Source of the DNA: Agromyces mediolanus
Lineage (GTDB): Bacteria > Actinomycetota > Actinomycetes > Actinomycetales > Microbacteriaceae
Direction of reading: 5' to 3'
DNA length: 64,000 nt
Assembly (NCBI RefSeq): GCF_014648575.1
Contig: NZ_BMRJ01000003.1
Coordinates: 1-64,000, forward strand
Under the pieces are notes generated by a model. The model was not told the origin of the DNA, made no database searches, and saw only the letters and a list, made by a program, of their open reading frames with translations. The position numbers and the translations under genes were made by a program. Shown piece after piece: positions 9,438-10,682 of the stretch (within the stretch, counting starts at the first letter, position 1; each line of letters begins with the position of its first letter).

Positions 9438-10477
9438 GGGGCGACTCCGTTCACGGGGAGGCCGGTCGACTCGGCGAGGCCGAGCGCGAGGTTGGCGGAT
9501 TGGATGGCGGCACCCGCGGTGCCCTTCACGAGGTTGTCGACGGCGGTGACGACGACGACGCGGCCCGCGGCCTCGTCGACGGCGACGCCCATCAGCGCCG
9601 TATTCGCGCCGAGCACGTCGGCGGTGCGCGGGAACTGGCCCTCGGGGAGCAGCTGCACGAAGCGCTCCCCCGCGTACGCGTCCTCCCAGGCCGCCCGGAC
9701 CGCCGCGGCGCTCGTGCCCGGCACGATGCGTGCGGTCGAGGTGGCGAGGATCCCCCGGGACATCGGCACGATCACCGGCGTGAAGGAGATCGTCGGCGCC
9801 GCGGCCCCCGCCCAGCGGAGTGCCTGCTGGATCTCCGGGATGTGCCGGTGCGTGCCGCCCACCGCGTACGGGTTCGCGGAGCCGAGGATCTCGGAGGCGA
9901 GCAGGTGCGTCTTCGCGCTCTTGCCGGCGCCCGAGGGCCCGACGGCGAGGACGCTCACGAGGTCGGTCGGCTCGACGACCCCGGCCCGGATGCCGGGCGC
10001 GAGCGACAGCGCCACGGTCGACGCGTTGCAGCCGGGCGCCGCGATGCGCCGGGTCTTCGCGAGCCGGTCGCGCTGGGTGCCGGAGAGCCGGGGCAGCTCG
10101 GGGACGCCGTAGGTCCACGCACCGTGGAAGTCGCCGCCGTAGAACGCGGTCCAGTCGGCGGCGCTCTCGAGGCGGTGGTCGGCGCCGCAGTCGATGACGA
10201 GGGCGTCGTCGGCGAGCTCCGCCGCGACCGCGCCCGAGGCGCCGTGCGGCAGGGCGAGGAAGACGAGGTCGTGACCGGAGAGGGTCGCGGCGCTCGTCTC
10301 CTGCAGCGTGAGATGCGTGTAGCTGCGCAGATGCGGCTGCACCTGCACGAGCGGCTGGCCCGCGTTCTGATGCGCGGTGACGGTGCGCACCTCGAACTCG
10401 GGATGGTCGGCGAGGAGCCTGAGGATCTCTCCCCCGGCATAGCCGGACGCGCCGGAGACGGCGACGGAGTAGGTCAT
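9434..10477 (-). CDS. argC: N-acetyl-gamma-glutamyl-phosphate reductase
   Basis: NADPH-dependent reduction of acetylglutamyl phosphate; first gene of the operon. The 347-residue protein opens with SGASGYAGGE (nucleotide-binding loop) and carries the catalytic cysteine in APGCNAST (about residue 150). The ATG start at 10477 has AAGGTGG four bases upstream. That ribosome-binding site lies inside the 11-base palindrome ACCTTTAAGGT (10484-10494). Upstream are the arginine-rich leader peptide and alternative hairpins, described separately. Confidence 0.97.
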   Translation of the reverse strand: MTYSVAVSGASGYAGGEILRLLADHPEFEVRTVTAHQNAGQPLVQVQPHLRSYTHLTLQETSAATLSGHDLVFLALPHGASGAVAAELADDALVIDCGADHRLESAADWTAFYGGDFHGAWTYGVPELPRLSGTQRDRLAKTRRIAAPGCNASTVALSLAPGIRAGVVEPTDLVSVLAVGPSGAGKSAKTHLLASEILGSANPYAVGGTHRHIPEIQQALRWAGAAAPTISFTPVIVPMSRGILATSTARIVPGTSAAAVRAAWEDAYAGERFVQLLPEGQFPRTADVLGANTALMGVAVDEAAGRVVVVTAVDNLVKGTAGAAIQSANLALGLAESTGLPVNGVAP

Positions 10478-10517
10478 GAGTCCACCTTAAAGGTCTGAGC
10501 GGTCGTGGGTCGGCTCC

Positions 10518-10580
10518 GGCGACACCGGTGCACGGCGGCATCGCCGTGCACGGGGTCGCCTAGCGTCGGCGAGCGCCCCG
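10518..10580 (-). promoter_or_regulatory. attenuator-like pair of mutually exclusive hairpins upstream of argC
   Basis: On the minus-strand RNA one hairpin is formed by GGCGAC (10555-10560) with GUCGCC (10518-10523), enclosing a perfect 10-bp stem (10542-10551 with 10528-10537) and the loop AUGC. Its outer stem begins at the last base of the leader-peptide stop codon. A competing hairpin pairs CGGGG and CGCC within the final Arg codons (10576-10580, 10568-10571) with GGCG and CCCCG (10557-10560, 10551-10555). The two share bases and cannot coexist. This is the layout expected if ribosome position on Arg codons decides RNA folding. No U-run follows, so the output could be Rho-dependent or translational. 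Confidence 0.5.
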
Positions 10581-10646
10581 GCGTCGGTCGCGCAGCGCGG
10601 CGGCGCGCAGAGGCTGCGCCGCGGCGAGGGACCGAAGGGAGGACAT
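10560..10646 (-). CDS. arginine-rich leader peptide of the arg operon
   Basis: A 28-codon frame beginning MSSLRSLAAAQPLR and ending DRRRGARRR directly before TAG. Nine of 28 residues are Arg, six of them in the last eight codons. The ATG lies six bases after TAGGGT, with TTGGCA 18 bases further upstream, so transcription should begin at or next to the start codon (leaderless). It ends 82 bases before argC, with the competing hairpins starting at its stop. The position, size and codon content are those of an amino-acid-sensing leader peptide for arginine. It is too short for statistical gene finding, so expression is inferred. Confidence 0.62.
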   Translation of the reverse strand: MSSLRSLAAAQPLRAAALRDRRRGARRR

Positions 10647-10652
10647 GCTGCG

Positions 10653-10682
10653 ACCCTACCGACTCGGCGGGAGGGATGCCAA
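10653..10682 (-). promoter_or_regulatory. promoter of the arginine operon leader
   Basis: Minus strand TTGGCA (10677-10682; five of six matches to TTGACA), an 18-base spacer and TAGGGT (10653-10658). The ATG of the leader peptide follows after six bases. It lies 19 bases beyond the pheT terminator stem, so argCJBDFH-mpg is a separate unit from pheST. I saw no ARG-box-like palindrome over it. Confidence 0.66.

Follow-up and report, generated by a model that had tools for sequence, protein, structure and literature searches.

The classical ribosome-mediated attenuators of amino-acid operons include trpL, hisL and pheL. In T-boxes, by comparison, uncharged tRNA binds the RNA directly, and the fungal arginine attenuator peptide acts through arginine-induced ribosome arrest. 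Mycobacterial cysteine leaders are reportedly leaderless, going by the title of a 2020 paper by Canestrari. An excerpt of a study on ilvB1 of M. tuberculosis presents it as a ribosome-mediated attenuator (PMC13236596), and excerpts of two further papers deal with the cysteine leaders of mycobacteria (PMC1262725, PMC4633059), which the former predicts and describes as lacking obvious terminators. That paper is a 2005 survey of actinobacterial amino-acid leaders, and its excerpted text mentions arginine T-boxes and reports no conserved RNA structures upstream of arginine operons (PMC1262725). Judged by title or start of abstract, no earlier report of a bacterial arginine leader was among the matches listed from open-licence PMC papers.

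Here we describe a short Arg-rich leader upstream of argC in Agromyces mediolanus (Table 1), located in the first 64,000 nt of contig NZ_BMRJ01000003.1 (the window, i.e. the whole stretch of DNA analysed), together with its counterparts across the Microbacteriaceae. We put the probability that this element acts in cis as the arginine sensor of the argCJBDF-H operon at about 0.62. Like the classical attenuators, it stands in single copy before a biosynthetic operon, has a short frame with repeated codons of the pathway amino acid and places its stop beside an RNA arm; unlike them, it concerns arginine, is leaderless by its promoter spacing and has neither a conserved competing hairpin nor a U-tract terminator. 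As no competing hairpin is conserved, it is not a textbook four-segment attenuator: the element works like amino-acid attenuation but, by the criteria of competing structures and an intrinsic terminator, is not a classical attenuator. Since no terminator was found after the hairpin, the word attenuation expresses our deduction about the output.

With the mycobacterial cysteine leaders the element shares an actinobacterial short ORF, control codons at the end of that ORF, the lack of an obvious intrinsic terminator and, going by the title cited above, a leaderless start, but it differs in its amino acid, in the conserved, covarying hairpin at the stop and in its occurrence in a family without the usual repressor. 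That system, ArgR and its ARG boxes, is a protein repressor with DNA operators, unlike the argC leader; in other families of the order, whose argR is mostly close to argC, it is expected to control this operon, whereas argR was not found in Microbacteriaceae. The fungal arginine attenuator peptide and arginine T-boxes resemble the leader in responding to arginine at the RNA level, but in neither does a bacterial ribosome read a leader with a series of Arg codons. If the proposal is correct, translation of an Arg-codon leader would control a bacterial arginine operon in a family that has yielded no ArgR, and this operon would be a clear example of one mode of regulation giving way to another. 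Two questions would also become testable: how one ribosome with one hairpin can govern Rho-type termination, and whether a codon read only by inosine serves as the sensing codon.

Table 1 Features of the argC leader region and arg operon in the A. mediolanus window
Feature	Positions	Strand	Evidence
Promoter-like pair TTGGCA (10682-10677) -N18- TAGGGT (10658-10653), 6 nt before leader ATG	10653..10682	(-)	sequence
28-codon Arg-rich leader peptide gene, MSSLRSLAAAQPLRAAALRDRRRGARRR and stop	10560..10646	(-)	sequence; conserved in relatives; in-frame Arg codons kept despite synonymous change
First Arg cluster, codons -8 to -6 = CGA CGC CGG; 17 nt to hairpin base	10578..10586	(-)	sequence
Nearly invariant CGA codon (-2), 5 nt before hairpin base	10566..10568	(-)	CGA in 104/105 distinct leaders
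Alternative hairpin CGGGG...TCGCC/GGCGA...CCCCG, not conserved	10551..10580	(-)	-16.4 kcal/mol; no covariation
Conserved hairpin, 43 nt; 5' arm GGCGAC (10560-10555), 3' arm GTCGCC (10523-10518)	10518..10560	(-)	covariation, fold
C-rich, G-poor linker between hairpin and Shine-Dalgarno, rut-like	10489..10517	(-)	composition comparison
argC Shine-Dalgarno AAGGTGG	10482..10488	(-)	AAGG columns at least 90% conserved in 59-row alignment A1
argC	9434..10477	(-)	TIGR01850, 337 bits
argJ	8280..9437	(-)	NF003802
argB	7354..8277	(-)	TIGR00761
argD	6173..7357	(-)	NF002874
argF	5214..6149	(-)	TIGR00658
argH-like frame, 482 aa, directly after argF, no argR between	3769..5217	(-)	named from its sequence alone, without library scan

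The argC leader and its distribution in Microbacteriaceae

The promoter-like pair and the 28-codon frame named in the preliminary description were both confirmed on the minus strand between pheT and argC. The -10-like box lies 6 nt upstream of the leader ATG at 10646, so the mRNA would be leaderless, and the frame holds nine Arg codons, six of them within its last eight codons, before a TAG stop at 10562-10560. A simple scan of 10300-10800 found no sigma-70-consensus site, the TTGGCA/TAGGGT pair scoring below the scan threshold. What had been called the pheT terminator proved to be a stable inverted repeat downstream of that gene, within 10741-10698 (12 pairs, a mismatch and 5 pairs; -37.7 kcal/mol), that has no T run. 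In an ArgC comparison, Agromyces soli and A. mediolanus were the nearest named genomes (98%).

The preliminary description had proposed that argC upstream regions be aligned across the family for a conserved Arg-rich frame and for covariation in both hairpins. Among 120 Microbacteriaceae genomes, argC was obtained in 113 and each upstream region was read. A strict leader, defined as a TANNNT box 5-8 nt before ATG or GTG followed by a short frame with at least four Arg in its last 16 codons, was present in 56 of the 113, against a mean of 0.85 and a maximum of 3 in 20 rounds of dinucleotide shuffling. Within the box-to-start range allowed by the search, the distance was 6 in 47 of these leaders and 7 in nine; by comparison, the leaderless Arg-coding leader of the earlier account is supported. 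Strict leaders were also found in 59 of 80 named relatives, comprising 29 of 30 Agromyces, all 20 loci labelled Microbacterium, all four Leifsonia and six others, with none in the nine Leucobacter or the four Rathayibacter; in the thirtieth Agromyces the region is cut by a contig end and the 3' part of the element is visible. A relaxed element (CGA-N5-GGCG with a matching 3' arm) was present in 62/113 family genomes, 61/80 named relatives and 0/28 outgroup argC regions, with 0 to 3 matches in 20 rounds of mononucleotide shuffling of the 113 regions, and 49 of the 113 family genomes had neither leader nor relaxed element.

A covariance model built from 59 sequences, which match it by construction, gave one match per genome in 93 of 199 family genomes (42 of 85 genera) at E up to 0.001, and no match under these stricter filters in 106. 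The match adjoined the argC start in all 58 matched genomes with a placed argC (coordinates compared by eye). Searched against 198 genomes of the order, the model returned 13 matches, all in Microbacteriaceae, with one Microbacteriaceae genome without a match among the genomes listed and 165 further genomes likewise without one. In the window, the argC element scored 90.9 bits and the next best site 16.8, and the A. mediolanus genome held no second copy beyond argC at E up to 0.001. Upstream of argG no comparable leader was seen, the Arg-containing frames there having neither the TANNNT spacing nor the end motif (by eye). Rfam covariance models gave no match in the window at gathering scores, nor any with E up to 1 when restricted to the leader region. 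Judged by these comparisons, the leader, its Arg codons, the hairpin, the C-rich linker and the location at argC only are conserved features. Arg-rich frames are to be expected by chance in GC-rich DNA, where CGN codons are common, and the frames counted here had been selected for Arg; set against the excess over shuffles (56 to 0.85), the empty outgroup regions (0/28) and the single model match beside argC (58/58), chance is nevertheless an almost negligible explanation.

The remark that no argR stands next to the arg operon proved to hold far more widely, as ArgR (PF01316) was absent from the A. mediolanus genome and from 120/120 Microbacteriaceae genomes, in a search that was positive in 9 of 14 named controls. 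In a sample of the order, ArgR was present in 138 of 149 genomes, the 11 without being ten Microbacteriaceae and one 0.8-Mb genome, and hence in 138 of 139 genomes from other families. ArgR is normal in the order and the Microbacteriaceae are the exception. Among 30 outgroup genomes searched, 28 have argC; argR lies about 3.5-6 kb from it on the same contig in 26 of these and on another contig in two (established by hand), and none of the 28 carries an Arg leader or element upstream of argC. By eye, a GTATAGTTATGC-like stretch recurs at the argC start of many of these genomes with ArgR (L195-L221, final 40 nt upstream of argC), and we take it to be an ARG box. Several family genomes without the element have TAGATTTGA-like boxes just before argC (by eye); given these boxes, the 49 of 113 genomes without the element and the lack of ArgR in the family, control in such genomes may be constitutive or of another kind. 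In eight genomes without a leader (L016, L044, L050, L061, L062, L064, L065, L067), a TAGATT box precedes the argC start by about 6 nt, a spacing that would suit a leaderless argC.

Hairpin, competing helices and the output step

The G of the leader TAG stop is the first base of the main hairpin, so the outer stem begins at the stop codon as had been claimed, and the fold confirms the structure at -35.4 kcal/mol (ViennaRNA). Folding the entire leader gives a minimum-energy structure that contains this hairpin (z -2.69, with 1 of 200 shuffles reaching its stability). In alignment A1, which holds 59 of 72 rows after thirteen were removed by hand without a fixed rule, several of them with weak stems, the nine-pair stem is paired in 90.5% of cells. 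Its double-change (compensatory) cells number 29, compared with 9.4 for shuffles, and 0 of 500 shuffles reach 29. Because of this manual removal, the pair count was repeated with all 72 rows (89.5% paired; 34 double-change cells against 10.6 in shuffles, reached in 0/500); the thirteen left-out rows alone are 85.5% paired, with 5 double-change cells against 0.8. The covariation anticipated for the first hairpin is accordingly found across the family. The number of pairs with double changes (5 in the 59 rows) is not beyond shuffles (mean 4.0; 71/500 reach it), and slid-stem controls gave 24 double-change cells and 66.7% pairing with the 3' arm moved by -3 columns in the 59 rows, and 17 double-change cells in the best slid copies of all 72 rows. 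RNAalifold recovers the same stem base, with six pairs, two of which have double changes.

Fold energies and accessibility were computed for 92 of 109 rows, those with a 3' arm ending between -50 and -30. The main hairpin is more stable than the competing-hairpin region in all 92, lies below composition shuffles (mean z -3.3; 88/92 rows below -1) and has a mean predicted probability of 0.77 (median 0.99), near zero in some rows. Its total length, tabulated for 109 distinct rows of 115, ranges from 34 to 90 nt and is mostly 42-62, with variable arm spacing; as the 3' arm was picked here for best pairing, with the first four pairs holding by construction, these counts were not used for covariation. 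The GGCGAC/GTCGCC inverted repeat could in principle serve some non-ArgR repressor as its DNA operator, with the frame incidental, and its outer four base pairs are indeed invariant (59/59), though row selection partly required them. The variation in arm spacing over that length range, the compensatory changes inside the arms and the strong coding signal with a leaderless start nevertheless make an operator very improbable.

The second hairpin proposed in the preliminary description can be drawn and, sharing strand 10560-10551 with the main hairpin, is mutually exclusive with it in the A. mediolanus sequence, but it is not conserved, and the short competing helix shows no covariation in the family alignment. 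Synonymous recodings of these peptides moreover fold more stably than the competing-hairpin region itself (mean z of that region +0.93, 92 rows); with neither covariation nor such stabilisation, the second hairpin looks incidental and a two-hairpin switch found no support. A longer 1:2 helix, also considered as a competing structure, reaches 63.7% pairing against 58.5 for shuffles and has 17 double-change cells against 10.4, but a slid copy scores nearly as high (0.124 against 0.125), which leaves it a weak candidate. From the attenuation architecture originally claimed, the leader, the covarying hairpin at its end and the absence of ArgR stood, while the two-hairpin switch did not.

A simple scan of 10300-10800 found no intrinsic terminator, and no T run follows the hairpin. 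Over -38..-14, C exceeds G in 113 of the 115 genomes with a leader and in 33 of the 78 that lack a strict one (C.457 and G.197 against.333 and.337, respectively); this C-rich linker, at about 25-30 nt, is short for a rut site. The Rho gene is present in the A. mediolanus genome. An alternative output is translational, with leader translation opening or closing the argC ribosome-binding site by RNA pairing, as proposed for mycobacterial cysteine leaders. The Shine-Dalgarno does follow the hairpin, and with a masked 5' arm the predicted partner of the 3' arm is sequence further downstream (mean 0.66). In individual rows the opening energy shifts by over 1 kcal/mol, upwards in 32 of the 92 and downwards in 27. 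Between the two states (5' arm masked or not), however, the means over the 92 rows barely move, with a Shine-Dalgarno unpaired probability of 0.55 versus 0.57 and an opening energy of -18..+15 of 12.0 versus 11.8 kcal/mol, and translational control is accordingly improbable. Shine-Dalgarno sequestration, tested twice, found no support, the mean accessibility over these rows being the same in both states. Given the lack of an intrinsic terminator, the unchanged mean accessibility of the argC start, the C-rich linker and the Rho gene, we prefer a Rho-type mechanism, in which the output would probably be transcriptional and Rho-dependent.

Proposed arginine sensing and the polarity of the response

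Codon statistics were anchored on the hairpin base in 105 distinct leaders of 115, the anchor fixing only the CG of codon -2; this codon is CGA in all but one. Arg occurs at position -9 in 60 of the 105, at -8 in 79, at -7 in 78, at -6 in 63 and at -3 in 84. Across codons -9 to -5 of 99 distinct rows, single-base differences are synonymous versus not in a ratio of 5301:2894 in frame, versus 1239:7125 and 2733:5960 in the other frames, and 24 distinct Agromyces rows (codons -12 to -1) give 532:628 in frame versus 160:968 and 278:729 off frame. Arg averages 5.70 per 12 codons in frame, a figure raised by selection for Arg, versus 0.72 and 1.84. Relative to argC, the leaders favour CGA (24.5% versus 3.4%) and CGT (22.2% versus 6.9%) over CGC (44.6% versus 63.9%) and CGG (8.6% versus 23.6%); before codon -3, with the anchored end excluded, CGA makes up 12.5% and CGG 9.9%.

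The Arg anticodons found in the A. mediolanus genome are ACG, CCG, CCT and TCT, with no TCG among the 36 tRNAs scanned from 45 matches (one of the 36 lacking an ARAGORN gene, and the nine unscanned being 82-89 nt). With this set, a single tRNA of inosine type would decode CGU, CGC and CGA alike, and tRNA-Arg(ACG) is the only one found that would read the CGA at codon -2; the leader bias towards CGA and CGT, with no TCG isoacceptor found, fits sensing through this tRNA. An excerpt on a Salmonella his leader assay describes CGA as read poorly compared with CGU and CGC (PMC4046918). The leader frame is probably translated, and comparison across genomes gives good support for Arg-tRNA sensing by the leader ribosome, with arginine as the presumed in vivo signal.

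In the mechanism we propose, RNA polymerase would start at the ATG of the leaderless mini-gene and a ribosome would follow. With Arg-tRNA(ICG) in short supply, the ribosome would stall at the first Arg cluster (codons -9 to -6), leaving the base of the hairpin free so that it forms. With arginine plentiful, the ribosome would reach the slow CGA and the stop, cover GGCGA and keep the hairpin open, and the untranslated downstream RNA, including the C-rich stretch, would be exposed, so that transcription stops before argC, most likely by Rho. A ribosome footprint reaches about 12-13 nt ahead of the A-site codon, such that a stall at -9 to -6 would free the hairpin and a ribosome at -2 or the stop would cover its base, which gives the proposed polarity. 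We place the hairpin as the ON state at roughly even odds. A ribosome stalled at the best-conserved Arg codon (-2) would cover the hairpin base, which speaks against induction under this polarity.

The main rival reverses the signs. The hairpin would be the OFF state, a ribosome waiting at the CGA would cover GGCGA while polymerase enters argC, and with plentiful arginine the ribosome would leave, the hairpin would form and expression would fall, the Arg run serving mainly to slow the ribosome at the leader end. That the best-conserved codon (104/105) is the one 5 nt from the hairpin speaks for this opposite polarity, as do the six genomes described below that keep the CGA and the hairpin, yet place just one or two Arg in that first cluster. 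A ribosome stalled in the well conserved stretch from -9 to -6 would, however, free the hairpin and so repress the operon under starvation, and no T run follows the hairpin; we regard the opposite polarity as unlikely.

The end of pheT as a possible leader

The sensor proposed here, with its CGA and hairpin, may take a different form in six genomes of three genera (L047/L058, L072/L091 and L110/L111, two each), which have no separate leader. In these, CGA-N5-GGCG[AG]C comes from the end of pheT, ER[FLS]GA[AT]LR[DE] before the stop. The hairpin and then the C-rich linker lie downstream of it, and only one or two Arg stand at -9 to -6. The CGA occurs in 6/6 of these genomes versus 5/62 other recognised tails (4/30 in leader genomes, 1/32 in genomes without), a few of the recognised tails not being pheT. 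The covariance model, trained without the pheT-tail genomes, recovers all six, at E values from 1.2e-4 to 4.6e-9. The final codons of pheT appear to play the leader's part as a putative sensor, suggesting that the end of an essential gene doubles as a leader. In all six, over the final 30 nt of pheT and the interval up to argC, it is the pheT tail that provides the CGA and the 5' hairpin arm carried by the leader in other genomes.

A broader history may be offered tentatively, as one joint reading that we hold to be doubtful in its entirety. An ancestral loss of ArgR from the arg operon would have passed control to a minimal RNA device, with the end of pheT as leader in some lineages and a leaderless mini-gene elsewhere. 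The device would consist of a slow CGA, whose only reader in this genome is the inosine tRNA-Arg, followed after 5 nt by a single hairpin and a stretch resembling a rut site. It would have neither a competing hairpin nor an intrinsic terminator.

The leaderless mini-gene is perhaps itself derived from the pheT end, as the two termini RLSATPRR-stop and RFGATLRD-stop might suggest when placed side by side. Eight leaders have no TAG at the hairpin (L024, L054, L059, L066, L074, L081, L085, L092) and close with R-[LF]-[SGQ]-A-T-..., an ending that resembles the PheT tail RFGATLR[ED]-stop and shares its reading frame; these non-TAG leaders could possibly have arisen by duplication of the pheT end.
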